Shown piece after piece: positions 16,801 to 34,846 of a stretch of 64,000 nt of DNA. Each line of letters opens with the position of its first letter. Within the stretch, counting starts at the first letter, position 1. The translations under genes and the position numbers were made by a program. Origin of the DNA: an uncultured Thalassolituus sp. GTDB taxonomy: Bacteria > Pseudomonadota > Gammaproteobacteria > Pseudomonadales > Oceanobacteraceae. The notes below the pieces were generated by a model that saw nothing but the letters and a program-made list of their open reading frames with translations, was not told the origin of the DNA and ran no database searches. The stretch covers positions 1-64,000 of the forward strand of contig NZ_CATMFB010000018.1 of assembly GCF_950066645.1 (NCBI RefSeq), read 5' to 3'.

Positions 16801-17825
16801 AGTGAACGGATCTGTCCCTGAATTGTGCGCATGGTTGAATCACCCAGCAGTAACCCCGCCTGCTGCTGATCTGCATCGTAACCGGACAGATCATCGACGA
16901 ACTGCTTGAGTTCATTGTAGGAATCAACAAACTTCTGAATGTTCTCAACCAGGGTGTCGGTGTCTGCACTGACATTCACAGTCACCTGAGTACCAACGTC
17001 CGCACTCTGAAGATTAATCGTGACCCCCTTAATCACCTCTGCCACTGCATTGGAGGTACGGGTAATCGTGAGACCATTGACCTGCAGCTGTGCATCTTCA
17101 CCTTTACTGGTCTGCTCAAGGTTGCCGGTACCGTTCTGGGATTCGTTGTAAGCCAGTGCAGAAAGACCTGTCGTCAACAGGTTGCCGCTATCATCTGTCG
17201 CCTCGATCCGCATGGCATTCTTAGCACCGGTATCACTGGAGGTCATCAGAAGACGGTAGCCGCTGCCATCATTAATAATGGTTGCAGTCACACCCATATC
17301 GGCGGTATTGATCGCATCGCGGATGCCGCTGAGGGTACGGTTGGAGTCGTCGATAGTAATCGTTTTGGTCTGACGTTCGGTATTAACATCCTGCCCTGAA
17401 ATATTTCCGGACCCGTCGTACGTGTTAGTCCCGAAGCTGAAGGTGAGCTTGCCTGTTCCAATGATCTCGTCAAAGCTCGCGAAGGTCCCTGTCGCCAGTG
17501 AGTGCGATTTCGCTGTATTCAGCACTTCAACGTTGTAGCTGCCCGGATCGGCTGTAGACGATGTCGTGACTGTCAGAATGTCTTCGTTCGAAGAGGTGGC
17601 CTTCGTTGCTCCTGCGGCGCTCGGGCTGGCCAGCGTGTTGACTGCCGACTGCATCGTCGACATCAGAGATTTGATTTCACCATAAGCGGTGATTTTGGCT
17701 TCAATCAGTTCCTGGCGGTTATCCAGACGTAGCTCACTCACCTCTTTCTCAGCGGTGATGATCTTATCGACCAGATCTGTAGTCAGAACCCCCGAACCCA
17801 GTCCGAGTGACTCAATCGACGCCAT
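13872..17825 (-). CDS. fliD: Giant flagellar filament cap protein FliD
   Basis: FliD caps the filament and assembles flagellin. At 1317 residues it is two to three times the usual 450-650. The ends are canonical: N-terminal IESLGLGSGVLTTDLVDKII with coiled coil, the usual FliD core to about 400, and a C-terminal helical D0/D1 segment at about 1235-1317. Residues about 420-1200 are an insertion built of repeated beta-rich units of roughly 80-110 residues, seen near 447-545, 578-682, 766-845, 856-966 and 1090-1190. Typical units read NATFELDVDG, then LQAIQSAID, then GYLQFETSAVG. The frame is uninterrupted, so it is not a fusion artefact. It matches the oversized flagellin nearby. Its gene is separate from fliS. 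Confidence 0.95.
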   Translation of the reverse strand: MASIESLGLGSGVLTTDLVDKIITAEKEVSELRLDNRQELIEAKITAYGEIKSLMSTMQSAVNTLASPSAAGATKATSSNEDILTVTTSSTADPGSYNVEVLNTAKSHSLATGTFASFDEIIGTGKLTFSFGTNTYDGSGNISGQDVNTERQTKTITIDDSNRTLSGIRDAINTADMGVTATIINDGSGYRLLMTSSDTGAKNAMRIEATDDSGNLLTTGLSALAYNESQNGTGNLEQTSKGEDAQLQVNGLTITRTSNAVAEVIKGVTINLQSADVGTQVTVNVSADTDTLVENIQKFVDSYNELKQFVDDLSGYDADQQQAGLLLGDSTMRTIQGQIRSLISQPIAGLSGKFRSLTELGVNTDRNNDFLLEFDSSVFTSAVAQERSSIVGILAKSGVTTDSQITYVNDSINTKAGTYDIEITQMATQAKYTSASLALLDFASPVQIDASNDSFTINVNGKDATVSLTHGDYATGDALAKELALQINSDDTLVQFGHSVSVDYSSADRNFSITSNKYGAESQVYIKSVAGNTANTLGFSPLGAGTYEGVSLTTLNADAFSGKGAKTDVGSRPVDAETGINFQANNATFELDVDGAGPVLVTVSQNAQGQDLNGDGTFGDRLDTLQAIQSAIDATSLSGSVIASFNDNGYLQFETSAVGAARSIEIASTGASVTDTLLGLDATQGAKTNGKDPGLTFPSAVNFKVQVDGVETDGFVSVSAGTYLTGADLATEIQTQLAATLSTDPNFTGVVRGAETSAGSRDISTNIDFTTTNGGFTLNVSGNEQEIIVNSDSGDNIVDIQAALDTAYGAGVVTASLDGTGLKLSSVATGHNEFIEVVQDGRGAYTSSFADITTGYDFSAASQNATFTLTVDGININVDVNGDGTTGSNDEQSNLTVIQRALDTALVDSGEYSAGDVKAAVDGSGQLYFETVAKNGVKTAATYGSSASVQVSNLGGTAASALGLSAETVTNGYDGFGMSSARTFGYDLDPLVAYEYDAEKNLGSFSVQIGGEGTSIGFTELDADAIAFLGLQDVSNYSQEIPTGKDVAGKINGVEATGSGQFLRAVDGNVKATPGYYIGAESAGFDSPVVLDASNSTFRIAVDGIEAEVALNFPATYISGSALASALQVAINNTAELKAEGKTVKVEYTSDTSSFAYNKFGIISNTTGAESSVQIKDVSAGAATLFGFVTGAGDGETGKDQSGEIDDASGLRLKVTGGTIGNRGSVTYISGFGDQLKSLLDNYLSNSGGTIANKLSALDDDLDTVGEDRDKLEARISAQEARLKSQFLYNDALIQTLNTTLDYVKAQFEALNGTNKD

Positions 17826-21300: not shown

Positions 21301-21930
21301 AGATACTGAAGAGGTGTCGTCTTCTGCACGGGATGCAGCGATTGCTGTACCGTTGATAACCAGGTCACCATTCTCCAGAGCGTTGTCAGTACCACGCGCT
21401 GAAAGACCAGATTGAGAAGAAGAACCCAGCTTGTCAGCGGTCAGTTCACCGATGGAGATATCTACTGTCTGACCAGCGTTCGCACCCACCTGGAACGTTG
21501 CCGAGAAAGAACCATCGAGCAGCTTACGACCGTTGAAGTCGGTTTCATCTGCAGTACGTGAGATCTCAGACACCAGCTGATCAACCTCCGCCTGGAGAGC
21601 TTCACGGTCGACATCAGAGTTCGTGGCGTTAGCAGACTGAACTGCCAGCTCACGGATACGCTGCAGTGATTCGTTAATAGAACCCAGTGCACCTTCAGCG
21701 GTCTGCGCCAGAGCGATACCGTCACCGGCGTTACGTACGGCAACGTTCAGACCTTTAATCTGAGAAGTGAAACGGGTAGAAATCGCCAGACCCGCAGCGT
21801 CGTCTTTCGCGCTGTTGATACGGAGACCAGAAGACAGGCGTTGCAGAGCCTGCTGGTTCGAGGACTGGGATTTGTCCAGGTTACGCTGAGCATTCAGCGA
21901 GGCAATGTTCGTATTAATAATTTGAGGCAT
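18358..21930 (-). CDS. fliC: Giant flagellin
   Basis: This is the filament subunit, exported through the flagellar core. At 1190 residues it is over twice the usual 280-550. Both ends are standard: MPQIINTNIASLNAQRNLDK and LSSGLRINSAKDDAAGLAIS at the N-terminus, and NRLESTVSNLQVTSENLNAA to QQVLSLLG at the C-terminus (D0/D1). The surface region (about 180-1085) has two mirrored halves of related sequence. LENGDLVINGTAI (about 185) pairs with LEDGDLLINGVTI (about 846), and INRYSDETGV (about 224) with INKVADETGV (about 894). Between them, two tandem units (about 500-630 and 694-832) both end in a GEL-x-F, VNVTL motif. AGGAGA precedes the ATG. It has its own sigma-28 promoter. Confidence 0.97.
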   Translation of the reverse strand: MPQIINTNIASLNAQRNLDKSQSSNQQALQRLSSGLRINSAKDDAAGLAISTRFTSQIKGLNVAVRNAGDGIALAQTAEGALGSINESLQRIRELAVQSANATNSDVDREALQAEVDQLVSEISRTADETDFNGRKLLDGSFSATFQVGANAGQTVDISIGELTADKLGSSSQSGLSARGTDNALENGDLVINGTAIAASRAEDDTSSVSNNAASAISKAAAINRYSDETGVTAQVNENVAGGSEMSGTAGSGTFTLNGVDISFSTTTDTAQSRAAITQAINAVSEQTGVRAVDTENGSTGVNLVAEDGRNITLTFDTTELTGLDQDTFAAATGLAGGATLQSGTTYSNTYEGGYTLIADGDQKTIEISGGNGTGRGDLANAGLTAGTYDRAKAVSVSSKVSDDTKASTVGGGSLSNTLERADSGGTFISQAGGSVTTTVTTTATAAQITDSGASLTIVQGTTAVTYSNAGDQDIAAYADAAETAATTAGIDVNFYEQGTMTLSGLDAGDSFDIGGVTINVSGSTAILRAENVVDQLNAGNFTADLGATGFLNAELDGTGGDVTFTFRNETNTQLTADRTTAGAVTIDGTTISTGANATILTGELGFASTSATGEAVNVTLTDAGTELLAAPGSVTASSSAGDVLTTTAETNLSVSVGGVDVSPSAPLQAGSTVAELASAIDGVSGVSAYEEINLTITDSNLESGEQLRFSAGGTDIDVTVTPDSAGNFTLQGLADDINGTDFSTANMDVSATYDADSGEVSLTIRNYSANTVSLETENASGQTITVSEGGTTEIGENALNLSGELKFYSDDGKDVNVTLSDPTTGGELFAGKSASEDYTGVNGLEDGDLLINGVTIGGADVNADTASATVSSDGSKILSSEKSQSAIAIAAAINKVADETGVSASVNATEVVGGDGTNVDLTQFEEGDQAGIYINGVEVGTVTLQSDGGGNLDADRARADALNLINQNSGKTGVVAEDNGVSLTLTAADGRNVSIAIDDKSGSSASIGAVLGLDAEVEGIGEATFGEGSVAGGGTSAEAAAYETTYGSISLSSAKEFTLEGGANGNSELDAIGLATGTYGGGEDGQFLADIDISTFEGAQAAITAIDNAIGQVASQRADLGAIQNRLESTVSNLQVTSENLNAANSRIQDADFAAETAELSRTQVLQQAGISVLAQANAAGQQVLSLLG

Positions 21931-22264: not shown

Positions 22265-24316
22265 ATGACACACCCGCGAGCCGCCGGAGCAATGGCGCTG
22301 AAAGACAAAAATCTGGCGTTTTTTAAAAATAAGCACCCGGCGCTTTATCAGACAGCACTCCAGGAAAACTTCAGCCGCCTGACGCTTAACATCGATGGCG
22401 AGAGTGGAAAGGTCGACCTGTGGCTGAACAGGCAAAGTCTGTACAAGGGAGATGCACACGCATTTGCTGAAAAAGAGGTCGCCGCCTACAAACGCAATTT
22501 CGGGCCGGGTGAGTCAATTGCTACTATTCTGCCCCCCAGGCCGGGAGCAATAGGGTTCCACCGCTTCTTCTCCAAACGTATGCACGCCCTGACAGATCAG
22601 ATCCCGGAGGACGCGGATCTGACACAGTATTACTCCATTCCCGATTTCTATCCGATGATTGCGTTTTTCGGTTGCGGGCTTGGCATCCACATCGAGAAGA
22701 TGATTCAGGAACACCGAATACTCAATGTCATTATCTTCGAACCCGACCCAGAGTATTTCTTTGCCAGCCTGTACGTCACAGACTGGGAAAACCTGTTTAA
22801 AGAGTTCGAGCGTAAGGGCAATAAAATAGACATCCTGGTAGCCAGCGGCGGTGTTGCTCCTCCCGAGGTATCATCTCCAGCATTGTGGAATCTGCTGATC
22901 AACTACGGACCAAGCTTTCCACTGTGTGCGCTCTTCTATAACCACATCAGTAGCGAGCCTTACAGCCCTATCATCAAACGTATTCAGGGCGATATGCACT
23001 TCTTCCTGAACCAGTGGGGATACTACGATGATGAAATTAATCAGCTGAACAACGCACTGCATAACATAGGCGCCGGTGTTCCTCCGATGTCTTATGACCA
23101 GATTGATACCAGCCTTCCAGCGGTCATCGTGGGTGGCGGGCCATCATTCGATATGCGGGTGGAAGAAATTAAGCGTCACAGAAGCAAAATGCTGCTGATC
23201 TCCTGTGGGACCGCGGTGCACAGCATCATTGCTGCCGGATTAATGCCCGATATTCATGTTGAGATTGAGTCACACATGCTGACTTACGATCATCTGTCGA
23301 AGATTGAGGCTGAAGAATTTTTCGAGAACACCCTGCTCGTCGGCGCACTACAACTCCCGCCTCAGGTATTTGGCCTGTTCCGGCATGGATATTATTTCCT
23401 GAAAGATTCAACCGCGCTGGGCAATATGTTCGGTAAACCCGAAGAGATCGTTCATCGCGCCACTCCAACCTGTACCAACACAGGTGTCGCTATCGCAACA
23501 CACCTGAAGCTCGACAGCGTATTTCTGTACGGGATGGACTTCGGGTTCCCCGAAAAGAATCAGCATCACTCGAAGAACAGTATCTACTTCAGCGACAAGA
23601 TGAGTGACTCGATCAAAGAGGGCGTTAAACGCAACCTCGAAAAGCTGGTTGAGACTGAGTCCGTGCATGGAGATCTGATGTACACATTCCCGATGTACAA
23701 CACATCACGGATGAGCATAGAGCAGTTGATCAAACACAGGACCATTCATCAGGGTACGAAAAGTTATGCCTGCTCAGAGGGCGCAAAGATCGCTAATACC
23801 AACTATCTGACACCAGAAGACGTCGACAGTTTTTTCAGTAAGCGTGACGAGATTACATCCACCGAGTTTCTGAAATCACTGAAAGGGACTGCCTATACGC
23901 AAAAGCAGATGCGCGAAAAAATAAAAGAACTGGCAACGTTCCTGACAGAAATCAGCCGCTCACTGACCATCTGTCTGAATTCGTTAAAGTCGACCGAGCC
24001 CGAGGATGTCTTCCGGGTCTGCCACACCATTAACATGAATCTGATACAACAGATTTTTCCGAAATACGGGCTGACCGCGTACTTTATCCGTGGCTCAATC
24101 TGGCATTACCTGAACGTCGCGTGCGCTCATTCACTGTCGATTGAGAATCAAATAAGCCGTGATCACTTTATAAACGCGTGGAAAGAAAACTTCGGAAGCT
24201 TCCTGAAAGATCTGCCAGCACACTTTGACAGCATTACGTCTAAGACATACCCAGATTCTGACGACCCCTGGATTCGCAACGATATCGTCTCGAACGAACA
24301 TCTATACGCAGAATGA
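22265..24316 (+). CDS. maf: Motility-associated factor (Maf) glycosyltransferase, DUF115/MptE-like
   Basis: Maf proteins transfer nonulosonic acids such as pseudaminic acid to Ser/Thr of flagellin before export. The 683 residues contain the family core at about 280-450: VIVGGGPSFDM, ISCGTAVHSIIAAGLMPDIH and VFLYGMDFGF, the Rossmann-like MptE fold. The N-terminal part carries the repeated aromatic motif also found in Maf proteins (IPDFYPMIAFFGCGLGIH). The start has AAGGAGA 8 bases upstream. It is divergent from the flagellin gene and faces the pseudaminic acid operon, ending with a 15-base convergent overlap. The sigma-54 promoter ties it to the flagellar cascade. Confidence 0.92.
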   Translation: MTHPRAAGAMALKDKNLAFFKNKHPALYQTALQENFSRLTLNIDGESGKVDLWLNRQSLYKGDAHAFAEKEVAAYKRNFGPGESIATILPPRPGAIGFHRFFSKRMHALTDQIPEDADLTQYYSIPDFYPMIAFFGCGLGIHIEKMIQEHRILNVIIFEPDPEYFFASLYVTDWENLFKEFERKGNKIDILVASGGVAPPEVSSPALWNLLINYGPSFPLCALFYNHISSEPYSPIIKRIQGDMHFFLNQWGYYDDEINQLNNALHNIGAGVPPMSYDQIDTSLPAVIVGGGPSFDMRVEEIKRHRSKMLLISCGTAVHSIIAAGLMPDIHVEIESHMLTYDHLSKIEAEEFFENTLLVGALQLPPQVFGLFRHGYYFLKDSTALGNMFGKPEEIVHRATPTCTNTGVAIATHLKLDSVFLYGMDFGFPEKNQHHSKNSIYFSDKMSDSIKEGVKRNLEKLVETESVHGDLMYTFPMYNTSRMSIEQLIKHRTIHQGTKSYACSEGAKIANTNYLTPEDVDSFFSKRDEITSTEFLKSLKGTAYTQKQMREKIKELATFLTEISRSLTICLNSLKSTEPEDVFRVCHTINMNLIQQIFPKYGLTAYFIRGSIWHYLNVACAHSLSIENQISRDHFINAWKENFGSFLKDLPAHFDSITSKTYPDSDDPWIRNDIVSNEHLYAE

Positions 24317-25249
24317 TACAGACCTGAGGTCCATGATACCTGCATGTGGCAGAACACATGCAGGTGCCTGTGGCGGCAATGCACAATACACCTTTCTTCC
24401 CGCTGCCAGCGCGACCACCATCGCATAGCTGTTCAACCCTACAACGCAATCAGCCTCAGACAGTGCTGACGATAAAGAGCGGGTGCTATCAACGGTAATC
24501 TTATAAATTTGATGGTCAGTTAATAAGGTGTACTTATTCTCCGGATCTGACGGGTGAGGACGGATAGTGATATCCCCTACCGCCGCTGAAGAATCTTCAA
24601 GACATTGAAGAAAAAATCGGAACGCGGCAAATTCGCCTGCCTCGCCAACACCGACCATCCCCCAGGCATCCCGCACGGGTTCCATAAGAAACAGAATACG
24701 TCCGCGATGTGGCGCTGACTTTACTTCTGCTATCTGGCGCTCAAGATATCTGCCTGGCATTCTGCGGATTTCCGCTCCGGGAATTTCTTCTTCGGCGATC
24801 CTGGCAGCCTCTGAATCAACAACCCATAGCTCGTCGATCTCCACCGAACCCTCATCACAGAAGTGAAAGCGAGGACGATAATTCACCCAATGGTCCAGCA
24901 CGGCTACGCATTTTTTACCACAGCGACGAGCAGCAGACATGGCGGATTTCTCGTGGTCGGTTTGCCAGCCTGTTCCGGTCAGCACCCAGCCTGATTCAGA
25001 TACCGCGTGTTCAACTGAGTAGTTTGTGCCGTCAAAACCAAACTGATGCGCAAGAGTCAGTGCGGGGCCAGCAAGTGCAAAAATAGCCTGATCTGGATCG
25101 AGATCCCCGGAACTTAACCAGGAAAAGATCTGATTTGCTGCGCCGGCGTCGTGGGCAACAACCGCAAAACGCCCAGCTGGAATATCTGATGGGCGGGAGT
25201 CTGTATCAGCGGAAGGCGGCAAAGTAGTGCATGTCATAGGCTTCCCCAT
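24302..25249 (-). CDS. Unknown protein, last gene of nonulosonate operon
   Basis: I do not recognise a named family. The 315 residues begin with FAVVAHDAGAANQIFSWL and have a two-lobed look. The N-terminal Rossmann-like half includes KCVAVLDHWVNYRPRFHF and DELWVVDSEAA. The C-terminal half includes ILFLMEPVRDAWG, ITIRPHPSD and SALSEADCVVGLNSYAMVVA. Patterns such as RPHPSD and a late SYAMVVALAAG resemble GT-B-type or UDP-GlcNAc epimerase-like sugar proteins, so a sugar-nucleotide hydrolase or transferase is plausible. AGGAG lies 7 bases before this ATG, which overlaps the acetyltransferase gene by 44 bases, so coupling is likely. It ends convergent with maf. Confidence 0.75.
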   Translation of the reverse strand: MGKPMTCTTLPPSADTDSRPSDIPAGRFAVVAHDAGAANQIFSWLSSGDLDPDQAIFALAGPALTLAHQFGFDGTNYSVEHAVSESGWVLTGTGWQTDHEKSAMSAARRCGKKCVAVLDHWVNYRPRFHFCDEGSVEIDELWVVDSEAARIAEEEIPGAEIRRMPGRYLERQIAEVKSAPHRGRILFLMEPVRDAWGMVGVGEAGEFAAFRFFLQCLEDSSAAVGDITIRPHPSDPENKYTLLTDHQIYKITVDSTRSLSSALSEADCVVGLNSYAMVVALAAGRKVYCALPPQAPACVLPHAGIMDLRSVSFCV

Positions 25250-25742
25250 CGACTAACTCCTGCGCAATACGAATACCGTCCGGGACCATTCCGGTCGCCT
25301 CCGCCACGCCAAGCATTGCCCTGTTACAGCTAAGAGTGCCCGCTGTCACCTTACGCATTTCAGGAAGAGATAACGCCAGATCAAGCGCAAGCTGCCAGGC
25401 ACGACGTCCGACACCTGACCCCTTAACGTCGGGGGCACCGACAAGAATCCCCATATCAGCGGTACCATGCCGGTCATTGAAGTGAACTGTCATAGTGCCG
25501 ACGTGACCGAAAGCTTTGTGTTCAATAGCGAGAAACACCGAAGGGGACGCTTTTACAGAATGGTAAAAAGCCTGACAGCTTTCGTCATCGTGCTGAATAA
25601 AGCGCTGATTACTGAAGCGCATCGTCCCGGGATGATTCAGCCACCCTATATACGCCTCAGAAATATCTTCCGCTCTGAACAAACGGACCGTAACATCCTC
25701 TGCAGAAACAGGTAGCGCCGCAATAAACTGATCTTTCATCAT
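25206..25742 (-). CDS. GNAT acetyltransferase
   Basis: This 178-residue protein has a RimJ/PseH-like GNAT fold: VRLFRAEDISEAYIGWLNHP at the start and the acetyl-CoA loop VKGSGVGRRAWQLAL near 108-122, followed by NRAMLGVAEATGM. It probably acylates an amino sugar in the nonulosonate pathway. A separate PseH-like domain is already present in the PseG fusion, so this is a second acyltransferase. The start overlaps the aminotransferase stop by four bases (ATGA type). Confidence 0.88.
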   Translation of the reverse strand: MMKDQFIAALPVSAEDVTVRLFRAEDISEAYIGWLNHPGTMRFSNQRFIQHDDESCQAFYHSVKASPSVFLAIEHKAFGHVGTMTVHFNDRHGTADMGILVGAPDVKGSGVGRRAWQLALDLALSLPEMRKVTAGTLSCNRAMLGVAEATGMVPDGIRIAQELVDGEAYDMHYFAAFR

Positions 25743-27034
25743 ACCGCTGCAACCTTGTGTGCCCAGACCTTACGAAATGCCTGAATAATCAAGTCAATAT
25801 CAGCTTCATTAAGATCATACACACACATCCCGAATCCGAGGTATGTTGAATCATTCATGACCTCTGCGACCGGACATATCCCCTTGTCGTAGCTGACCGA
25901 TTGACGACTGAATTCTGCACTCCAGGGGAAGCCCGTAGAGCCATATGCCATTTTTTTCTGGTACATAGGCAACAGGTGCAAATTCTGATAACGGGTCGCC
26001 AGTTCAACACCTTCTGCCTTTAACGCAGCAGCCAGCTCTTCTTTGGAGCACCCGGTAATCAGTGGATCAACGAGCAGCGGAAATACGTAGTACACATGGG
26101 TATTGCCTTCACCCACCACAGGAACCTGCAGGCCTGGCAAGTCACGGATCCCCTCTGCAAGACGTTCGGCCAGGTGTTGTCGTGACGCCACCAGCGCAGG
26201 AAGCTTTTTAAGCTGCTCAATGCCAATAGCGCACTCAATTTCACCGAGGCGGAAGTTATATCCCAGCATATTATTCAGAGGCATTTCTTCGCGATCATTC
26301 AGCACTGCCTCAGCATGATTGCGTATCAGGCGTACACGCTCAGCGAGTGCATCATCATTGGTGACAACCACCCCACCCTCACCCGTATGGACATGCTTAT
26401 GGTAATTGAGGCTGTAACCACCAATGTCTCCGAGCGTACCGGCGAACTTACCCTTATACAGAGCCGCTGGCGCCTGAGCGGTATCTGAAATAATCCGCAG
26501 ATTAAATTCATCCGCAATCTGACGTAGCGCATCCATGTCCGCTGACTGTCCGAAAATATCGACCGCCATTATGGCTCGCGTTTTTTCGGTGATATTTGCC
26601 CGTACAGATTCAGGATCCAGATTGAAGGTATGCGGATCAATATCTGCAAATACCGGGATCGCATTCCACTGCAGTATGGCTGTCGCACTCGCGCACATGG
26701 TCCACGGGCTCACGATAATTTCATCCCCGGGTTCAATGTCCAATGCCCCTACGGCTGCAATCAGACCGGAGGTCCAGGAATTCACAGTGATAGCATGCTT
26801 AACGCCGAAGTATTCCTGACACTGAGTTTCAAACTCCCGAACCTTACTACCACCGTAAAAATCTTCATGCCAGCACCCAAGAAACTGGGACAGTACACCG
26901 GTTTCCATGACTTTCTGAACAGCCTCGGCTTCTTCCGTTCCGAGACTGTTATACCGAGGAAAAACACGATCAATTACCGGAGTTCCACCAGCTTCCGCCA
27001 AAGGGACTTGCCGTAACTCGTCAGCAGTTTTCAT
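25739..27034 (-). CDS. DegT/DnrJ/EryC1 sugar aminotransferase (second in island)
   Basis: A PLP-dependent aminotransferase of 431 residues that converts a keto sugar to an amino sugar. Signatures include VNSWTSGLIAAVGALDIEPG, DEIIVSPWTMCASATAI and the PLP region SLNYHKHVHTGEGGVVV with the Schiff-base Lys. I chose the ATG giving MKTADELRQVPLAE, preceded by AAAAGG; a longer in-frame extension lies within the upstream oxidoreductase gene. It is not PseC, which is encoded separately below. Its likely substrate is the keto product of the neighbouring Gfo/Idh oxidoreductase. Confidence 0.9.
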   Translation of the reverse strand: MKTADELRQVPLAEAGGTPVIDRVFPRYNSLGTEEAEAVQKVMETGVLSQFLGCWHEDFYGGSKVREFETQCQEYFGVKHAITVNSWTSGLIAAVGALDIEPGDEIIVSPWTMCASATAILQWNAIPVFADIDPHTFNLDPESVRANITEKTRAIMAVDIFGQSADMDALRQIADEFNLRIISDTAQAPAALYKGKFAGTLGDIGGYSLNYHKHVHTGEGGVVVTNDDALAERVRLIRNHAEAVLNDREEMPLNNMLGYNFRLGEIECAIGIEQLKKLPALVASRQHLAERLAEGIRDLPGLQVPVVGEGNTHVYYVFPLLVDPLITGCSKEELAAALKAEGVELATRYQNLHLLPMYQKKMAYGSTGFPWSAEFSRQSVSYDKGICPVAEVMNDSTYLGFGMCVYDLNEADIDLIIQAFRKVWAHKVAAV

Positions 27035-28025
27035 AAGCCAACCTTTTAATCTGATCACACAAAGACTCTGTTCGGACTGCCGCATCCGCAGACGAATGCA
27101 CCCGGATACCTGCACGAGTGAGTTCTGTCAGTTCGTTAAATGCATTCTGCATAACAGGAGGGTACCCGCCATCCTCATGATGCTCACGGGCAAGGCGGCG
27201 ATAACCGGGAAAGTCCGGACTTTCATCCGCCGAGCGGATACTCCAGCGAAAGCCGCTATCCAGAATACGAAACTCGCCATGTTCGGTCAGGATCTGCAAT
27301 TCAAACTGAGAAAAATCCGCGGCCTGAGTACTGACCAGATGGCACAAAACACCGTCACCAGACCGTAAAACAGCATCCACGTCCGGATCACACTCATCAG
27401 TCACCTGCGCCGGGGAAGAAAAGGCGGCCCATAAAGGCGTCAGATCACCACAGAGCGTCAACAGGAGATCCAGCATATGGGAGCCGTTATTCAGTATGCC
27501 CTTGTTATACACGACGACAACGCTGCGTAATTTGCCATGCACACCATCACGGATATCCCTGAGCAACTCCTGAAGTTTATCGTCCCAACGTCTGCTGTAA
27601 TTTACCAATAACAACACACCTGCTTCACGGCAGGCATGCACAACGGCCTCAGTTTCTGCGGGGCTTTGACTCACCGGCTTTTCTAAGAAGATTGCTTTCG
27701 GTCTGAGAGCAAGTGCCTGGTCGACCATCTGCGAGTGAAAAGCCGTCGGAGCTGCAATAGTGATAATGTCGAAACCCGCCTCAGGAACGCTGACATCCTG
27801 CAACGCGCGATACCCGCTGGTGATCCCCCATTCTTCCTGAAAGAGAGCACGCGCTCGGTCATCAGGGTCGACACACGCTGAAACACTCACGCCCTCACAC
27901 CGCGCCAGCGCTCCCGCATGAGAAAGCGGCCAGCCCGCGCCGGAAAGCACTTCGGATTTCCGGTCAGAATCAAAGCCCCCGGAGATCCGGCCACAACCGA
28001 TAATGAGTGCACTCAGTGTCATCAT
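27021..28025 (-). CDS. Gfo/Idh/MocA oxidoreductase
   Basis: An NAD(P)-dependent sugar oxidoreductase of 334 residues. The Rossmann motif is LIIGCGRISGGFD at the N-terminus, the catalytic EKP motif is in FLEKPVSQSPAETE, and the C-terminal part holds NNGSHMLDLLLTLCGDL. The start ATG overlaps the stop of the upstream PIG-L gene. Such enzymes often supply the ketone used by a DegT aminotransferase, which is the next gene here. The exact hydroxyl oxidised cannot be told from sequence. Confidence 0.88.
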   Translation of the reverse strand: MMTLSALIIGCGRISGGFDSDRKSEVLSGAGWPLSHAGALARCEGVSVSACVDPDDRARALFQEEWGITSGYRALQDVSVPEAGFDIITIAAPTAFHSQMVDQALALRPKAIFLEKPVSQSPAETEAVVHACREAGVLLLVNYSRRWDDKLQELLRDIRDGVHGKLRSVVVVYNKGILNNGSHMLDLLLTLCGDLTPLWAAFSSPAQVTDECDPDVDAVLRSGDGVLCHLVSTQAADFSQFELQILTEHGEFRILDSGFRWSIRSADESPDFPGYRRLAREHHEDGGYPPVMQNAFNELTELTRAGIRVHSSADAAVRTESLCDQIKRLAYENC

Positions 28026-28708
28026 TTATCTACCTGACGCATCAGCATAAATGCTTCGGCATAGTCGACACCCACCGCAGCCCCACGGACTCCGGCCAAC
28101 TGTCGGCAGTTCTGATAAGAGCGGGGATGTGGATATTCCCGCATTTCCGCATCATACGAACGTAAAGCGCTTTCTTTGGCTTCGATATAATCTGAAATAT
28201 CAATCCAGTAATTTGGCTGAAATGCGTCGCCGATACCCCACTCAGTACTTGAGAGCACTTCAGCGGCAAGTATCTTGCGGATACGACTACCCGGCAGAGC
28301 CCGGCACGCCGTCATCACTGTCTTAGCGGTAAGCTGATGATCTACATTCAGATCGCCATAAAAATGCGTGTATACAACCGTTGGCTGAATTTCGTCAATC
28401 AGGGGCTCAATGCTCTGAACCAGATCCAGAAGCGGAACCGCATCAAGGCGGTTGTCCGGCCAGTTCAGACGTGTAATCTGCTCAATACCCAGCTTATCCG
28501 CCGCATGGTCGGTGGCCTGATTGCGTGCAGCAAAAGACTCGTCGTCTGCACTGGCTCTTGCGCCTTCTCCGTCTGCCATAAAAATGGCATAAACACGATC
28601 GCCTCGGGCAGAATGCCGGGCCAGAGCGCCTCCGCAACCCAGAGCTTCATCATCCGGATGTGCAAAGATTGCCAGCACAATGTCCTGTTCAGAATTTGGC
28701 ATATTCAA
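28022..28708 (-). CDS. PIG-L/LmbE family deacetylase
   Basis: A zinc-dependent de-N-acetylase of 228 residues. The metal motif is LAIFAHPDDEALGCGGALA (His, Asp, Asp) with a later metal His in NVDHQLTAKT. Family members remove acetyl groups from GlcNAc-type sugars. In this operon it could deacetylate a sugar intermediate or finished nonulosonate so that another acyl group (formyl or acyl) can be put on. It overlaps the genes on both sides by four bases. Confidence 0.9.
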   Translation of the reverse strand: MNMPNSEQDIVLAIFAHPDDEALGCGGALARHSARGDRVYAIFMADGEGARASADDESFAARNQATDHAADKLGIEQITRLNWPDNRLDAVPLLDLVQSIEPLIDEIQPTVVYTHFYGDLNVDHQLTAKTVMTACRALPGSRIRKILAAEVLSSTEWGIGDAFQPNYWIDISDYIEAKESALRSYDAEMREYPHPRSYQNCRQLAGVRGAAVGVDYAEAFMLMRQVDK

Positions 28709-29775
28709 CCTACCTGTTCATCCGCAGCAGGGCCAGTCAGTACGTCCCAGCTGACCGGCGTTCCAAAGTCGACGGCGGTTGTCAGCGTCCGCCCCACCAC
28801 ATCGTCAAAGTACTTAGGAGGCAACCCAAAACCGGGACGAATCCGGCGAACATCATCAGGAGTAATCTGGTGGCCCGCAGGTAAGTCCTTCACAAAATAA
28901 ATCGAACGACGGAAGCGCTTGTTCGCCTCTTCCGCAGGCTGACGTTTATATTCCGCAACCCCAAGTGCCTCCCAGGCGGATCCGGAGTCAGTCACCAACT
29001 GCTGCAGCTCTGCGGGCTCGATAGAAAACTCACTGTCAGGCCCTTTATCTGCACGACTCAGGGTAAAATGCTTTTCAATGACGCAGGCTCCCAGCGACAC
29101 TGCCGCAACCGAAGCCACCGTACCCAGAGTATGATCTGACAAGCCAACGGTAACGCCGAATTCCTGCTGCAGACACGCCATCTGACGCAGATTCGCCTGA
29201 TTCATAGGCGCTGGGTAACTACTGATACAATGCAGTAGCACCAGATCACGGCAGCCCGCTGCTCTTGCAGCCTCAACCGCTTCAGCAACCTCGCTCAGCG
29301 TGGCCATCCCGGTGGACATAATCATTGGCTTCCCCGTCGCTGCAATACAACGGATCAAAGGCAGATCAGTCAATTCAAACGATGCCACCTTGTAAGCAGG
29401 CGCATTCAGTGACTCTAAGAGCTCGACAGCCGTCTCATCAAAAGGCGTTGAAAAGATTGTGATACCACGCCGTGCAGCATGTTCAAAGATGGCCTGATGC
29501 CAGTCATAGGGCGTCTCTGCCCATTTATACAGGTCATAAAGACGGTAGCCATCCCACAAACCGCCCTCTATGCAGAAATCCGGTTTGTCACAATCAATCG
29601 TCATAGTGTCAGCGGTATAGGTCTGAATTTTAATCGCGCTGGCACCGGCATCCGCCGCCGCATCAATCGTCTGCAGCGCCTTCGACAGATCGCCGTTATG
29701 ATTGGCTGACAGCTCAGCAATAATATAAGGCGGATATTCTGGTCCGATTTTTCTGTTATTGATCGAAAAAGTCAT
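28705..29775 (-). CDS. pseI: Pseudaminic acid synthase PseI (NeuB family)
   Basis: It condenses 2,4-diacetamido-2,4,6-trideoxy-altropyranose with phosphoenolpyruvate to give pseudaminic acid. The 356 residues include the NeuB barrel (IIAELSANHNGDLSKAL, FDETAVELLESLNAPAYKVA, LLHCISSYPAP, GLSDHTLGTVASVAA, IEKHFTLSRADKGPDSEFSI) and a C-terminal antifreeze-like SAF domain (RRSIYFVKDLPAGHQITPDD). The barrel motif order fits PseI; LegI or NeuB specificity is less likely given PseB, PseC and PseF in the same operon. It overlaps both neighbours by four bases. Confidence 0.92.
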   Translation of the reverse strand: MTFSINNRKIGPEYPPYIIAELSANHNGDLSKALQTIDAAADAGASAIKIQTYTADTMTIDCDKPDFCIEGGLWDGYRLYDLYKWAETPYDWHQAIFEHAARRGITIFSTPFDETAVELLESLNAPAYKVASFELTDLPLIRCIAATGKPMIMSTGMATLSEVAEAVEAARAAGCRDLVLLHCISSYPAPMNQANLRQMACLQQEFGVTVGLSDHTLGTVASVAAVSLGACVIEKHFTLSRADKGPDSEFSIEPAELQQLVTDSGSAWEALGVAEYKRQPAEEANKRFRRSIYFVKDLPAGHQITPDDVRRIRPGFGLPPKYFDDVVGRTLTTAVDFGTPVSWDVLTGPAADEQVG

Positions 29776-30491
29776 ACAGACTCCTCTGCATTATCTGACG
29801 ACTCAATGGGCAGAAAGGTCGCTCGTGCAACGACCCTGCCATCCACCATTTCCGCATCCCGGAATTCCACCCGCATACCACTCTGCTCTATGTATGCATG
29901 TGGATAGCCGTCGGCATCAAGCATACGGATAAAATCGTATCGTTGTTGCTCGTTCAGCCCCTCTGGTATCTGGCTCTGCTCTGGTGTTCTGCGCTTAAAC
30001 AGCAGCGGGGGTCCCTGCTGCTCTACGGGCACTGGCTCCGACTCAGTAATAAGCCGAATCATTTCAAAACTCAGTTGACCGGCACGCAGATAAATATCCT
30101 GTGCACGCCCTTCAAGCGGGAGTACGCGTTTCATATATACCGGGCCGGCATCCATTGCTTCCACCATTCGGAAGGCCGACAATTTTGTTTCTGTATGCCC
30201 GCGAAGAATCAGGTTCTGTAACGGGCTTCCTCCCCGGCCAAACGGGAGATCGGTCATATGGAAGCAGACACATTCGTAGTTGCTCCATATCGACTGAGGC
30301 ACCCGTTCACTCCAATGCAGAAAGAAAATAAACCGCACATCAGCAGATTCAAGCGCCTGCTCCAACCCGGCTGTGTTTTCTACCCACATCCAGTGACCAG
30401 GGCAGCTATCCCGTAGCTGACAGAAACTGTCAAAATGCCAACGCTTGTTACTGGCAATAATATAAGTTTGCACTGCTCTATCTGAACACAT
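29772..30491 (-). CDS. Formyltransferase-like protein
   Basis: A 239-residue protein with the core of methionyl-tRNA/sugar N-formyltransferases: VRFIFFLHWSERVP, then FHMTDLPFGRGGSPLQNLIL in the position of the family's N-x-H...LP-x-x-R-G signature. DAGPVYMKRVLPL follows. The usual catalytic Asn seems to be replaced (CVCFHMTDLP reads Cys before the His), so activity is uncertain. I chose the internal ATG (MCSDRAVQ); the longer GTG start lies within the PseG gene. It may place an N-formyl group on an amino sugar, as VioF and QdtF do, or simply act as another acyl transferase. Confidence 0.78.
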   Translation of the reverse strand: MCSDRAVQTYIIASNKRWHFDSFCQLRDSCPGHWMWVENTAGLEQALESADVRFIFFLHWSERVPQSIWSNYECVCFHMTDLPFGRGGSPLQNLILRGHTETKLSAFRMVEAMDAGPVYMKRVLPLEGRAQDIYLRAGQLSFEMIRLITESEPVPVEQQGPPLLFKRRTPEQSQIPEGLNEQQRYDFIRMLDADGYPHAYIEQSGMRVEFRDAEMVDGRVVARATFLPIESSDNAEESV

Positions 30492-31980
30492 AGCAACGCT
30501 GCCCCACACGTTGAAAACCGGCGTTTCTGAAAGCACGACGAGAGGCGATATTGCCTGTATCTATATCGGCGACCACAGAAATATCCGGGTGCCTTAAGCA
30601 ACAGGCCCGCAGCGCACGCCGTGCGAGATTATTTCCCCGGTAACGACGATCAATCAGCACCGATACCTCAGCGGTTTTGCGGCGGCCTCTGTTTCCAGCG
30701 AAATCAAGTCGAACATACCCTGCCGGATAGCCATCCCACTCCACAATGTAAATCCGCGAGGAGGTTTGCTTCAGATGGCGCTCAAACCAACGCCGGTGCT
30801 CGCTCCAGCGAGGCACCTGAGGGTGACGGAAAAATCGCCTGGCTCCCGGTTGTTTCTGCCATTGATACAGACGCGCGCAATCACCAGCATCCACCGACCG
30901 GAGAACAAAACCGTACGCAACAGTAGACGAAAGAGCACGAACAACACGTTCAGGCCCCGCCCCATCAAGAAGGTGACGTCCACGGCTCCGCATCTGCTTT
31001 CTCACGTCGGCATCCACTATCATTTCTGAGATAAGCCCGCGATCTATTTCTGCGACTGCCTGACGAAAATCACCCACGATACACACACAACCCCTGGCTG
31101 CGGCTTCCTGCGCCTGGGGCACCTGATTGTCTGCGACAATAACTAACCCCGTTGGCAGGCCAGCAGCGACCCGCTCCCACAGCGAACCACCGGCGGCACC
31201 AATGCAGAGTTTATGACGGCCATACAAGGTGGACATGTCTTCACAATACGCAATGAGTTGCACATTAAATGGCCAGCTCCCGCCAGCTCCCTTAATTTCA
31301 TCCCAGGAGTGTGAATTGCGATTAACCAGAACCGTGATATTCAAGCCCTCGGCTTGCGGAATTCCGGTCATCTGCCGTAACAGCTCGGCAGTCAGTCCAT
31401 CCCGGTCGGCGCCGCCCAGATTCACGAGAACATCAGATTTTTCGTTCACCGGAATATCTTCTACGTTAAAAAACTCCGGACGCACGAGCGTATAATCTGC
31501 ACCCGCCAGCATTCTTGCGCAGGCCGTAATCTCTTTATAATCTTCTGACGCGGCTCCCGGGCGTGGGTCTAACAATAAATCGGCGTGAATTTTACGATGG
31601 GGCCAGTCTTCCAACATCATCAGAGGAAAGCCCGCTGCCTTAATCTGTTTCTGCCAATGCGCACCCAGACCATAGTGGTCTGACACGACCCAGTCAGCCT
31701 GAAAATTCATCATTTCCGACAGAAAGTGACGAGCATCAGCCTCTTGCTCGCAGACGCTCCACTCACCTTCCGTTGCATACTGTTCAGATCGGGCGGTGCC
31801 AGATAGCCGATAACCAATGTCTTTTTTACTCAGAAGTCCAAGCAGTACTTCAGAAGCTTCTGTCATAAAGAAAGCGCATTTATGTCCCCCCGCTTTCAGG
31901 CTCTCTGCCAATGTCAGACATCGCATCACATGGCCTGTCCCCAGACTGGGAGATGCATCACATCTGAAGGCTACCCTCAT
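30478..31980 (-). CDS. pseG: PseG-PseH fusion: UDP-sugar hydrolase plus N-acetyltransferase
   Basis: Residues 1-340 match PseG, which hydrolyses UDP from UDP-2,4-diacetamido-2,4,6-trideoxy-altrose: FRCDASPSLGTGHVMRCLTL at the start, VSDHYGLGAHWQ, VNLGGADRDGLTAELL, and the GT-B nucleotide site GAAGGSLWERVAAGLP. Residues about 355-500 form a GNAT domain (FVLRSVDAGDCARLYQWQKQ, then AEVSVLIDRRYRGNNLARRA) that fits PseH, which acetylates the 4-amino group one step earlier. The fusion therefore couples two consecutive steps. The start giving MRVAFRCDAS has GTGAGC upstream and lies 4 bases after pseF; earlier ATGs overlap pseF. Confidence 0.9.
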   Translation of the reverse strand: MRVAFRCDASPSLGTGHVMRCLTLAESLKAGGHKCAFFMTEASEVLLGLLSKKDIGYRLSGTARSEQYATEGEWSVCEQEADARHFLSEMMNFQADWVVSDHYGLGAHWQKQIKAAGFPLMMLEDWPHRKIHADLLLDPRPGAASEDYKEITACARMLAGADYTLVRPEFFNVEDIPVNEKSDVLVNLGGADRDGLTAELLRQMTGIPQAEGLNITVLVNRNSHSWDEIKGAGGSWPFNVQLIAYCEDMSTLYGRHKLCIGAAGGSLWERVAAGLPTGLVIVADNQVPQAQEAAARGCVCIVGDFRQAVAEIDRGLISEMIVDADVRKQMRSRGRHLLDGAGPERVVRALSSTVAYGFVLRSVDAGDCARLYQWQKQPGARRFFRHPQVPRWSEHRRWFERHLKQTSSRIYIVEWDGYPAGYVRLDFAGNRGRRKTAEVSVLIDRRYRGNNLARRALRACCLRHPDISVVADIDTGNIASRRAFRNAGFQRVGQRCYVFR

Positions 31981-31984
31981 CTGC

Positions 31985-32695
31985 TCACGACTCATAAGCA
32001 GATGAAGTACCAATAATTTCTGGGGCCATCAGCTCAGCTCGCGCCCAGTCATCGACCGTATCAATATCCTGAACCCGCCAGCGTGGTATCTCATATGCCC
32101 GGGATGCCGATGAAAATATCACGTCACCATTCAGCCAGGCCTCACTGACACCCCAGTAAAACTGCCCTGCATCATGGAATGCACGAGGCAGATCCTGTGA
32201 ACGCTTATTAAAATTCTCTGGCCAGAACATCTCAACCGAAGCATCGTCATGCAGCTGAAAAGAGCGGAAAATCGGCGCCGGAAATTCAGTCACAGTGAAA
32301 CTGTAACGACTGCCCGATGCAGCCAACAGTTTGTGAGCACCTTTCAGATCATCAATACTGATAAAAGGAGCGGTCGCGTAAATACAACACACCTCCTGGG
32401 GCTGATCTCCCTGATCGGTAAGTGTCTGGATCGCATGGGCAATGACTGGAATGGTGGGGGTGTGGTCATCCGATAAATCTGCAGGCCGCATGAAAGGGGT
32501 TTCCGCGCCATACGATCTCGCCACACTGGCAATCTCTTCGTCATCGGTAGAAACAATAACACGATCGAACATGCCCGAGTTTATGGCCGCTTCGATAGAC
32601 CACGCGATCATAGGTTTGCCGTAAAACATCTTAATATTCTTACGGGGAATCCGTTTACTTCCGCCCCGCGCGGGAATGACAGCAACTCTACTCAT
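31985..32695 (-). CDS. pseF: CMP-pseudaminic acid cytidylyltransferase PseF
   Basis: It activates pseudaminic acid with CTP. The 236 residues hold the NeuA-family nucleotide motif VAVIPARGGSKRIPRKNIK, then VIVSTDDEEIASVA and YATAPFISIDDLKGA. DAGQFYWG and DIDTVDDWARAE complete the family pattern. Spacing and motif choice fit PseF rather than sialic acid NeuA. It overlaps pseC by four bases and precedes the PseG-PseH fusion by four. Confidence 0.93.
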   Translation of the reverse strand: MSRVAVIPARGGSKRIPRKNIKMFYGKPMIAWSIEAAINSGMFDRVIVSTDDEEIASVARSYGAETPFMRPADLSDDHTPTIPVIAHAIQTLTDQGDQPQEVCCIYATAPFISIDDLKGAHKLLAASGSRYSFTVTEFPAPIFRSFQLHDDASVEMFWPENFNKRSQDLPRAFHDAGQFYWGVSEAWLNGDVIFSSASRAYEIPRWRVQDIDTVDDWARAELMAPEIIGTSSAYES

Positions 32696-33846
32696 ATCAA
32701 TAACTCCCTGAGACTGGCAACGACGATGTCCTGTTCCGCATCGGACATGCCGTGAAACAGAGGAATACTGAGTGCGTCCTGATAATACGATTCGGCTACC
32801 GGATAATCACCCGACTGAAACCCAAGCGCCTGATAATACGGCTGCAGATGTACCGGAATATAGTGCAGATTCACCCCAATTCCGCGCTCTCTGAGCGCAT
32901 CAAATAACTGATCACGCGCTATTTTTCCCTCAGGTTTCACACGGACAATATACAGATGCCAGGAAGAGTCGCTTTCTGATATCTGATGGGGAAGTATCAG
33001 AGGCAGCTCAGAAAGCTTTTCAGAATACTGCATGGCGAGCTGTCGCCGGCGATCAACAAAACTCCTTAACCGATTCATCTGACTGATACCAAGCGCCGCC
33101 TGAATATCCGTCATCCGATAGTTAAACCCGAGTTCCAGTTGCTGATAATACCAGGGGCCATCCGACGCTTTGGTCATTAATGCAGTATCGCGGGTAATGC
33201 CGTGAGAGCGTAGCCTCTGCATTCGCTCAGCCAGAGCGGCATCTTTCGTCGTGGCAACGCCACCTTCACCAGTAGTCACGATTTTCACCGGATGAAAACT
33301 GAATACAGTAATATCCGAATACTGACAATTGCCTACCGGGCTATCTTTATAGCTGCCGCCAATGCCATGTGAAGCATCTTCAATCACCCGAAAGCCAAAC
33401 TCCTTAGCTAACCCAGCGATCGCTTTCATATCGCATGACTGACCAGCAAGATGCACAGGAATAACAACCTTGGGTAAACGGTTCTCTGCCTGAGCAACCT
33501 CAAGTTTCGTGCGCAGTGCTGAGACAGACAGGTTATATGTAGACTCATCAATGTCTACAAAATCGACGTCCGCGCCGCAATAGCGGGCGCAATTGGCTGA
33601 AGCAACAAAAGTGACCGGGGACGTCCAGACAATATCCCCAGGGCCAACATCCAGAGCAAGGCAAGCAATATGAAGCGCCGAGGTAGCGCTGTTTACCGCA
33701 ACCGCAAATGGCGCACTCACAGCGTCGGCAACACTGGTTTCAAATCGTTCTACGGCGGGCCCCTGGGTGAGAAAATCCGATCTCAGCACCTCGGTGACAC
33801 TGAGAATATCCTCTTCTGTTATATCCTGACGCCCATACGGAATCAT
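32692..33846 (-). CDS. pseC: UDP-4-amino-4,6-dideoxy-AltNAc transaminase PseC
   Basis: A DegT-family PLP enzyme of 384 residues that aminates C4 of the PseB product. Signatures are IPYGRQDITEEDILSV at the N-terminus, AVNSATSALHIACLALDVGP, and the Schiff-base Lys in VFSFHPVKIVTTGEGGVA, followed by ELGFNYRMTDIQAALGISQM. It follows pseB by one base and precedes pseF, the conserved B-C-F order. Confidence 0.94.
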   Translation of the reverse strand: MIPYGRQDITEEDILSVTEVLRSDFLTQGPAVERFETSVADAVSAPFAVAVNSATSALHIACLALDVGPGDIVWTSPVTFVASANCARYCGADVDFVDIDESTYNLSVSALRTKLEVAQAENRLPKVVIPVHLAGQSCDMKAIAGLAKEFGFRVIEDASHGIGGSYKDSPVGNCQYSDITVFSFHPVKIVTTGEGGVATTKDAALAERMQRLRSHGITRDTALMTKASDGPWYYQQLELGFNYRMTDIQAALGISQMNRLRSFVDRRRQLAMQYSEKLSELPLILPHQISESDSSWHLYIVRVKPEGKIARDQLFDALRERGIGVNLHYIPVHLQPYYQALGFQSGDYPVAESYYQDALSIPLFHGMSDAEQDIVVASLRELLI

Positions 33847-33847
33847 T

Positions 33848-34846
33848 TCAGATACGACCTATCTTTTCCTGATTTTCTGCAATCCAGTCCTGGAGTTCTT
33901 CATCGGTCATCCACTCTGTGTTGTTATCACTGGCATACACAAAGCCATCAGACACAGGCCGGCCATCTTTGATGCGTGATGGGCAACGATCCCAACCGTG
34001 AATCGCAGGGAGAATTTTAAAATGCTCATCGTACTCAAACGTATGAATGGCATCCTCACTACCGATCATCTGCTCATGAAGCTTCTCGCCCGGGCGAATG
34101 CCAACCACTTCCTGCTCGGCGTCAGGGGCGATAACACGGGCAAGATCAGTCACCTTCATCGAAGGAATTTTTTTCACGTAAATCTCGCCTCCTTCCATGT
34201 CTTCGAAAGCGTGCCAGACCAGCTTAACCGCATCTTCCAGAGAAATCATAAAGCGCGTCATCCGCGCATCTGTGATCGGTAAGGTGCCCTTATCCTTGAT
34301 GGACATAAAAAATGGAATCACCGACCCCCGTGATCCCATCACATTGCCATAACGGACAACAGAAAAGCGGGTGCCGTGATCTCCGGAATACGAATTACCG
34401 GCAACAAATAGCTTATCAGAGGCAAGTTTTGTCGCACCATACAGGTTGACCGGCGAACTCGCCTTGTCAGTAGACAGCGCCACACACCCTTTCACACCGT
34501 GATCAATGCAGGCATCAATCACATTCATGGCACCGTTGATATTGGTCTTCACACACTCAAAGGGATTGTATTCTGCAATCGGAACGATTTTGGTTGCAGC
34601 CGCGTGAACAACGTAGTCCACACCGTCGAGGGCGCGGTAAAGGCGGTCTTTATCTCTGACATCGCCAATGAAGAAGCGTACACGAGGATCCCCCTCAAAT
34701 AACTTCGCCATCTCCCACTGCTTCATCTCATCACGGGAGAAAATGATCACTCGTCGAGGGTTGTACTTTTCCAGCGTCATAGGCACAAAGGCATGGCCAA
34801 ACGAGCCGGTACCGCCCGTCACCAGAATGCTCTTACCATCAAACAT
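33848..34846 (-). CDS. pseB: UDP-GlcNAc 4,6-dehydratase (inverting) PseB
   Basis: First step of CMP-pseudaminic acid synthesis: dehydration of UDP-GlcNAc with C5 inversion. The 332 residues show the NAD motif ILVTGGTGSFGHAFV, the substrate loop HAAATKIVPIAEYNPFECVK, LSTDKASSPVNLYGATKL (catalytic Lys and the YxxxK variant) and VRYGNVMGSRGSVIPFF. CAGGAG lies 8 bases before the ATG. As first gene of a ten-gene minus-strand operon it probably sets its expression. Confidence 0.95.
   Translation of the reverse strand: MFDGKSILVTGGTGSFGHAFVPMTLEKYNPRRVIIFSRDEMKQWEMAKLFEGDPRVRFFIGDVRDKDRLYRALDGVDYVVHAAATKIVPIAEYNPFECVKTNINGAMNVIDACIDHGVKGCVALSTDKASSPVNLYGATKLASDKLFVAGNSYSGDHGTRFSVVRYGNVMGSRGSVIPFFMSIKDKGTLPITDARMTRFMISLEDAVKLVWHAFEDMEGGEIYVKKIPSMKVTDLARVIAPDAEQEVVGIRPGEKLHEQMIGSEDAIHTFEYDEHFKILPAIHGWDRCPSRIKDGRPVSDGFVYASDNNTEWMTDEELQDWIAENQEKIGRI

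Follow-up and report, generated by a model that had tools for sequence, protein, structure and literature searches.

The window, a stretch of 64,000 nucleotides from an uncultured Thalassolituus sp. (contig NZ_CATMFB010000018.1, positions 1 to 64,000 of the forward strand), carries an operon of 11 genes, all on the minus strand and nearly gapless (34846-24302), in which the pathway to cytidine monophosphate (CMP)-activated pseudaminic acid (Pse) is extended by several further genes. Its gene content, together with catalytic motifs that are for the most part intact, argues at about even chances for a CMP-activated triamino nonulosonic acid destined for flagellin, predicted to be of the 5-formamido-7,8-diacetamido type, with C8 as the most likely site of the third amine. 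The host genome (3.7 Mb in 30 contigs) belongs to the same genus as genome G522, one of the comparison genomes. The sequence-only reading of this DNA had placed the operon at 24302-34846, and these coordinates hold exactly. The gene order is pseB, pseC, pseF, a pseG-GNAT fusion, a formyltransferase gene (FT1), pseI, and genes for PIG-L, Gfo/Idh, DegT, GNAT and GT-B-fold proteins; these and their neighbours are listed below.

33848..34846, minus strand: pseB, UDP-N-acetylglucosamine (UDP-GlcNAc) 4,6-dehydratase (inverting); TIGR03589, 539.4 bits against a cut-off of 407.75
32692..33846, minus strand: pseC, aminotransferase whose amine becomes N7; TIGR03588, 566.2 bits against 423.5
31985..32695, minus strand: pseF, CMP-pseudaminic acid synthetase; TIGR03584, 334.8 bits against 205.7
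30478..31995, minus strand: pseG with a C-terminal GNAT domain, the probable PseH substitute; TIGR03590, 227.7 bits against 153.55
29772..30491, minus strand: FT1, sugar N-formyltransferase-like, second type; PF21553, PDB 1zgh at 2.3e-51
28705..29775, minus strand: pseI, pseudaminic acid synthase; TIGR03586, 508.5 bits against 340.25
28022..28708, minus strand: PIG-L/LmbE-type N-deacetylase; PF02585, 1e-27
27021..28025, minus strand: Gfo/Idh/MocA oxidoreductase; PF01408
25739..27034, minus strand: second DegT aminotransferase; PF01041
25206..25742, minus strand: GNAT N-acyltransferase; PF13302, 8.7e-13
24302..25249, minus strand: GT-B-fold protein, linked to Gfo/DegT; AlphaFold model, Pfam and NCBIfam without a match
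22265..24316, plus strand: Maf-type flagellin glycosyltransferase, convergent neighbour; PF20157, 6.5e-31, and PF01973, 6.7e-28
18358..21930, minus strand: flagellin of 1190 residues, the presumed acceptor; Flagellin_N and Flagellin_C

The core pathway and the predicted product

The products of pseB, pseC, pseF, pseG and pseI each score above the respective NCBIfam equivalog cut-off, as expected for the CMP-pseudaminic acid pathway. The earlier statement that all Pse enzymes are present is borne out for these five, while PseH is represented only by the GNAT domain on PseG (PF13302, residues 370-501 of a 511-residue reading frame that opens with TTG at 32013 and has an ATG at 31995). The PseH model TIGR03585 finds nothing above its cut-off of 93.1 in the whole genome, the best score being 22.1 bits on another contig, and the fused domain probably takes the place of PseH. 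The extra genes carry the domains ascribed to them earlier, namely Gfo/Idh (PF01408), DegT (PF01041), GNAT (PF13302), PIG-L (PF02585) and formyltransferase (PF21553), with one protein lacking any Pfam match. Compared with the known route (PseB, PseC, PseH, PseG, PseI and PseF, with Maf transferring the sugar to flagellin), five enzymes above their cut-offs and the adjacent Maf and flagellin genes are shared, whereas the replacement of PseH by the PseG-GNAT fusion and six more genes between or after the core set the operon apart.

Within the genus, DegT was found at E <= 1e-90 in five of the nine genomes of the family search, and the four carriers other than the window's genome (L031/G522, G104, G521 and G518) show the same genes in the same order beside Maf and flagellin, with the sole substitution, in L031, of a formyltransferase gene for the GNAT domain. 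Since this order is kept in four other genomes, the arrangement is not a product of chance. Recurrence of the gene set elsewhere, suggested earlier as a check, is found inside the genus.

The L031 operon is instructive for the position directly after PseG, as its PseG lacks the GNAT domain and is followed by a separate second formyltransferase gene (FT2), whose product presumably acts in the manner of the formyltransferase PseJ. FT2-type genes also follow PseG in the loci L040, L073 and L075, and a true PseH occupies the slot in L074 (153.8 bits against the cut-off of 93.1). Because of these occupants, the slot is probably where the N7 group is chosen, being acetyl with PseH or the fused GNAT domain and formyl with FT2. 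In L040, a gene for a YhcG-type PDDEXK nuclease, possibly a mobile insertion, lies inside the Pse cluster between FT2 and pseI (L040:2908-4035).

The genes had been described as mostly joined by four-base overlaps, which is true of five of the ten junctions (pseC/pseF, formyltransferase/pseI, pseI/PIG-L, PIG-L/Gfo and DegT/GNAT, the third of these counted with a TTG start). The other five differ: four overlap by 11-44 bases, given the starts chosen in this analysis, and pseB and pseC are one base apart. For FT1 the ATG at 30491 was taken, the reading frame opening with GTG at 30536. Upstream of pseB, the one promoter-like site found in the region (34917-34890) is at chance level, 1.0 being expected.

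Read as a route, the gene content would have PseB, PseC, the PseG-fused GNAT domain, PseG and PseI produce Pse with N-acetyl groups at C5 and C7 (Pse5Ac7Ac), from which PIG-L would strip the C5 N-acetyl group and FT1 would formylate the freed nitrogen. One of the free hydroxyls on the nonulosonic acid, in all likelihood that at C8, would be oxidised by Gfo/Idh; DegT would transaminate the resulting ketone and GNAT would acylate the new amine, the acyl group being assumed to be acetyl. Activation of the sugar would fall to PseF and its transfer onto flagellin to Maf, and the GT-B protein may handle the CMP-activated sugar as a transferase. The predicted acylation steps balance: acetyl from GlcNAc, acetyl from the fused GNAT domain, formyl from FT1 and an acyl group from GNAT, less one acetyl removed by PIG-L, would leave three acylated amines, and this agreement was counted in favour of a triamino product. 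The computed residue masses (343.138 Da for the window's operon, 329.122 Da for the L031/G522-type operon and 316.127 Da for Pse5Ac7Ac) are exact predictions, which make the reading checkable in one proteomics run.

The assignment of the third amine rests on the carbon skeleton. The six carbons of the hexose, C1 to C6, supply C4 to C9 of Pse; hexose C2 and C4 bear nitrogen, and C3 and C5 become C6 and C8; C6 of Pse carries the ring oxygen, so that C4 and C8 have the only free hydroxyls after the PseI step. As no others are free after condensation, Gfo/Idh and DegT would act after PseI, at C8 or C4. C8 is the most likely site, since Flexibacter maritimus has a natural 8-amino nonulosonic acid. 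An earlier change, made to the UDP-hexose ahead of PseI, was considered separately and ruled out on pathway knowledge, as an amine at C3 would block the pyranose and the C5 oxygen of the hexose lies in the ring.

The deacetylase and formyltransferase pair

Among 398 phylum genomes searched at E <= 1e-20 (this threshold, like those of 1e-90 and 1e-6, being the authors' choice), eight have FT1, the window's own included, and about 20 kb around the gene was inspected in the other seven. In all eight clusters, which without exception contain pseI, PIG-L either adjoins FT1 or is separated from it by pseI only, and the PIG-L identities across them are 42-50% (BLAST). DegT at E 1e-90 was detected in only two of the eight genomes, those of the window and G453. 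Since FT1 and PIG-L occur together in six of eight genomes without a DegT hit, the extra genes of the operon form two modules, and a single oxidation-amination-formylation module is ruled out.

The site at which the pair acts is suggested by L073 and L075, where FT2, FT1 and PIG-L occur together, all open frames from pseB to the last Pse gene are assigned and no GNAT is found among them. With a formyl group placed at N7 by FT2, the C5 N-acetyl group inherited from GlcNAc would be the only N-acetyl left, an argument that covers the genes of the cluster and not acetyltransferases elsewhere in those genomes. As this group would be the sole target in the two clusters, the pair most likely swaps the 5-N-acetyl for a 5-N-formyl group.

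The catalytic residues of PIG-L are intact, with H17, D19, D20, E21 and H124 invariant in 10/10 sequences; HxDDE and a second histidine are taken here to be the metal motif of PIG-L N-deacetylases, and both elements are found. In FT1, His93 and Asp129 (residues counted from the start at 30536) are likewise invariant in all ten sequences compared.

The oxidation-amination module and its companion protein

DegT at E <= 1e-90 is confined to seven of the 398 phylum genomes. Outside the genus, nine loci were inspected (L042, L043, L044, L045, L046, L047, L048, L062 and L040). The first six come from the phylum search and L062 from the family search, and the last (G033) came in through Gfo rather than DegT, so that the count for Gfo is also given without it. 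Gfo stands directly next to DegT in six of these nine loci (five of eight without L040); a GT-B gene lies between the two in L043, Gfo is 5.6 kb away in L048, and the stretch inspected in L044 holds no Gfo. A NeuB-family synthase is present on the stretch in 6/9, and in four (L042, L045, L046 and L047) the gene immediately preceding Gfo encodes an enzyme of the CTP_transf_3 type. At the level of whole genomes, a NeuB-family gene is present in all seven DegT and all eight FT1 genomes, against 150 of 398 overall (hypergeometric 0.001 for DegT and 0.0004 for FT1; 0.003 and 0.001 once the window's genome is left out; genome kinship ignored). The nearby synthases of L040, L042 and L062 score above the PseI cut-off, and those of L045 and L047 are nearer to NeuB/NnaB, below its cut-off. 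With synthases of both PseI and NeuB/NnaB type alongside it, the Gfo/DegT module goes with more than a single sugar backbone.

Furthermore, E115-K116-P117 and H183 of Gfo are invariant in 12/12 sequences, and K213 of DegT, taken as the pyridoxal phosphate lysine, in 13/13. The GNAT protein matched no NCBIfam model; its relatives in the PDB include aminoglycoside N6'-acetyltransferases (7.6e-6 and 5.6e-5).

The protein encoded by the eleventh gene (24302..25249), which matched no Pfam or NCBIfam model, adopts a GT-B fold in its AlphaFold model (pLDDT 80.5, pTM 0.77). Its best Foldseek match is a UDP-GlcNAc 2-epimerase (3.7e-6), and in the VIA comparison the model aligns to the UDP-GlcNAc 2-epimerase entry 7vz6 (Z 15.0, 4.1 A over 264 residues), and to the polysialyltransferase 5wc6 (Z 14.7, 4.5 A over 271 residues). 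With the VIA rows tied at Z 14-15, the modelled fold by itself would not separate epimerase, hydrolase and transferase. By sequence, its profile found no relative among solved structures, the best match being a neurofibromin chain at E 0.55. His232-Pro233 is invariant in 10/10 sequences, and an HP motif occurs in GT-B transferases that use CMP- and CDP-donors; a transferase for a CMP-activated sugar is weakly suggested.

The association of this protein with the module is clearer. Relatives of about 32% identity lie near Gfo/DegT in L040 and L042, and a profile of five members finds others in L045, L043, L048 and L046, with L047 not clear (E 0.045). Across the phylum the profile detects five of 398 genomes, all five among the seven with DegT; two of these carriers (the window's genome and G137) had contributed members to the profile, having been picked beside DegT. 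Without the genomes used in building it, three out of three carriers fall within the five other DegT genomes of 396 (hypergeometric 1e-6). In G160, the GT-B gene and DegT are on separate contigs.

Beyond cellular genomes, the DegT profile picked up 387 relatives in IMG/VR; 80 loci were kept and eight of them, mostly those with the longest matches, were inspected. One of them, L080, is filed as viral and carries the Oceanobacter operon with Maf and flagellin; it looks like bacterial DNA and is not independent. Among the seven others, Gfo is present in six (all but L084) and a NeuB-family protein in five, by Pfam in L082, L083, L085 and L089 and by BLAST in L087; the short members of this family on phage contigs, 214-285 residues long, may represent divergent synthases. 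In both loci tested (L082 and L083) Gfo is preceded by a CTP_transf_3 enzyme, large proteins tested in L081 and L083 both contain the MptE-like domain of Maf proteins, and L083 also encodes a UvsX-like recombinase and has a weak tail fibre match. Apart from these results, Gfo/Idh and DegT were seen together with PseB-like dehydratases in L081, L082, L083, L085, L087 and L089, some of which also have Maf-like proteins. These phages may make or alter the nonulosonic acids of their hosts.

The sequence-only reading had proposed an oxidation-amination-acylation module added to the Pse pathway. The idea is supported by the recurrence of Gfo and DegT in the vicinity of NeuB-family synthases, both in other bacteria and on contigs of phages; the formyltransferase, which goes with PIG-L, has to be taken out of it. 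A broader proposal is more tentative, with chances slightly short of even: a 5,7,8-triamino nonulosonic acid route would be assembled from two exchangeable cassettes, one for deacetylation and formylation at N5 and one for oxidation, amination and acylation at C8, and would serve flagellin in bacteria of the Oceanobacter type; phages would bear the second cassette too, in some beside Maf-type transferases.

Several side observations concern the module in other genomes. DegT is fused to a methyltransferase domain in a protein of 780 residues on a plasmid of Azospirillum argentinense (L048:14992-17331). The Pse cluster of L042 (860-4605; G137) also has an aldo/keto reductase, a methyltransferase, a class III aminotransferase and two KdsB-like cytidylyltransferases, and a gene row in L077 resembles it by eye. 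As DegT occurs in 1/74 genomes of the family of G137, the copy in that genome is sporadic.

Competing readings and known systems

The nearest mechanistic analogue of the proposed C8 chemistry is the Kdo8N pathway of Shewanella, in which KdnA and KdnB act on an already completed 3-deoxy-ulosonic acid by oxidation and by transamination of the DegT type. Oxidation with DegT transamination would be common to both, and KdnA (5k8b) aligns with the operon's DegT over nearly its whole length (253.5 bits over profile positions 26-427), although 8gyh and perosamine synthetases score higher. The operon differs in its predicted nine-carbon substrate and in its oxidoreductase, which is of the Gfo/Idh family (PF01408) and not an alcohol dehydrogenase of the KdnB type, taken here to be metal-dependent. 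For the UDP-2,3-diacetamido-uronate pathway, whose enzymes are WbpB, WbpE and WbpD, no UDP-GlcNAc 6-dehydrogenase was found among the 11 operon proteins by Pfam and NCBIfam.

A number of results weigh against a triamino product. KdnA is not the closest relative of DegT, as it ranks tenth of 55 with the single sequence and fifth of 15 with the profile, behind 8gyh and perosamine synthetases. No NeuB was present on the stretches inspected at L043, L044 and L046, three of the nine loci, although in L046/G453 NeuB-family genes lie further along the same contig. Four of the nine genus genomes gave no DegT hit at E 1e-90, which makes the trait patchy. Among the seven IMG/VR loci, no NeuB-family protein was found in L081 or L084, L084 also lacks Gfo, the gene after DegT in L081 encodes a sigma factor, and the GT-B profile finds no match at E 1e-5. 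Folate-dependent sugar N-formyltransferases, in addition, carry an Asn-His-Asp triad, and the position of the usual Asn is held in FT1 by Cys in nine and Val in one of ten sequences, so the full triad is absent. Despite this, homology to the sugar N-formyltransferase family is clear (PF21553 and the PDB match noted above). The closest relative of known structure, 1zgh, whose deposited name is methionyl-tRNA formyltransferase, is identical to FT1 over 22 residues around the His except for Val at the Cys position.

The strongest competitor, unlikely but deserving of attention at roughly one chance in five, exploits the breadth of the two central families. Gfo and DegT are generic, with relatives in aminocyclitol biosynthesis; Gfo resembles inositol dehydrogenases and DegT glutamine:scyllo-inosose aminotransferases, so that a cyclitol is conceivable. 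Gfo/Idh, DegT and GNAT would then yield a distinct N-acylated amino sugar or amino-cyclitol, to be attached to pseudaminic acid or flagellin by the eleventh protein with its GT-B fold. Neither a second nucleotidyltransferase nor a second sugar dehydratase that could serve another sugar was found among the operon's proteins by Pfam and NCBIfam, however, and the frequent position of the pair beside CTP_transf_3 and NeuB-family enzymes, in other genomes and on phage contigs, fits a 3-deoxy-ulosonate.

Replacement of the C4 hydroxyl instead of that at C8, giving a 4,5,7-triamino nonulosonic acid, is less probable still. The established pathway leaves C4 as the only other free hydroxyl of Pse, and the occurrence of the module with both PseI-type and NeuB/NnaB-type synthases suits that position. 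Nevertheless, in the papers searched a single triamino nonulosonic acid came up, and its third amine is at C8 (accessible part of PMC3210612); Kdo8N, named in the same source, is likewise aminated at C8. Marginally the least probable is action of PIG-L and the formyltransferase alone on Pse, giving a formylated form such as Pse5Fo7Ac (302.111 Da) with Gfo/DegT unexpressed or used for another purpose, which would agree with the six of eight FT1 genomes without a DegT hit at E 1e-90 but sits poorly with the Gfo, DegT, GNAT and GT-B frames being open, overlapping each other and the preceding genes, and kept in all five operon-bearing genomes of the genus.

With the third amine of the favoured triamino product placed at C8, the closest chemical relative is found in Flexibacter maritimus, now named Tenacibaculum maritimum. 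Its O-antigen contains an 8-amino-3,5,7,8,9-pentadeoxynonulosonic acid of manno ring configuration, for which the accessible part of PMC3210612 gives the acetyl and hydroxybutyryl positions in two different ways. A nonulosonic acid with a third nitrogen at C8 is what the operon is predicted to share with it; the Flexibacter acid differs in sitting in the O-antigen, in bearing one hydroxybutyryl group and in a C8 configuration left undetermined in that part of the source. A term search of the accessible text of the Tenacibaculum maritimum genome paper (PMC5561996) returned no mention of O-antigen, nonulosonic, pseudaminic, aminotransferase, 8-amino or neuB. The suggestion of an undescribed nonulosonic acid has therefore to be narrowed: as an 8-amino acid has already been described chemically (PMC3210612, accessible part), any newness could lie only in the exact acylation pattern, the use on flagellin and the biosynthesis.

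N-formylated nonulosonic acids share with the operon a formyltransferase gene in a nonulosonate cluster, and formylation at N5 or N7 is known chemistry. A 5-acetamido-7-formamido nonulosonic acid reportedly occurs in Pseudoalteromonas distincta, to judge from the title of a reference. Halorubrum sp. PV6 has a 5-N-formyl-legionaminic acid (PMC6137143), for which no deacetylase partner like that of the operon is named in the accessible main text, where 'deacetyl' occurs 0 times. Formyltransferase genes are also known from flagellin glycosylation islands (PMC5109656 and PMC4875605, as far as accessible). In the open-access literature, which leaves most subscription journals outside its coverage, no paper was found that connects a PIG-L deacetylase with pseudaminic acid, or a deacetylase and a formyltransferase with it. 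Nor did this literature yield a paper on Kdo8N with an aminotransferase or with KdnA of Shewanella, and Pse5Ac7Fo appears in none of the papers listed.

If the triamino reading holds, genes would be assigned to a class of nonulosonic acids so far met only in structure work, and Gfo/Idh with DegT near a NeuB-family gene would serve as a marker pair for triamino sugars in genomes. In addition, PIG-L and the short formyltransferase would share an N5 role in many Pse clusters, and an unannotated GT-B-fold family would be named as part of a pathway.

Two features near the operon remain to be recorded. At 1190 residues, the flagellin (18358-21930) is unusually long, and two genes downstream of it lies a large open reading frame (13872-17825; 1317 residues), which by eye is a candidate filament cap protein.

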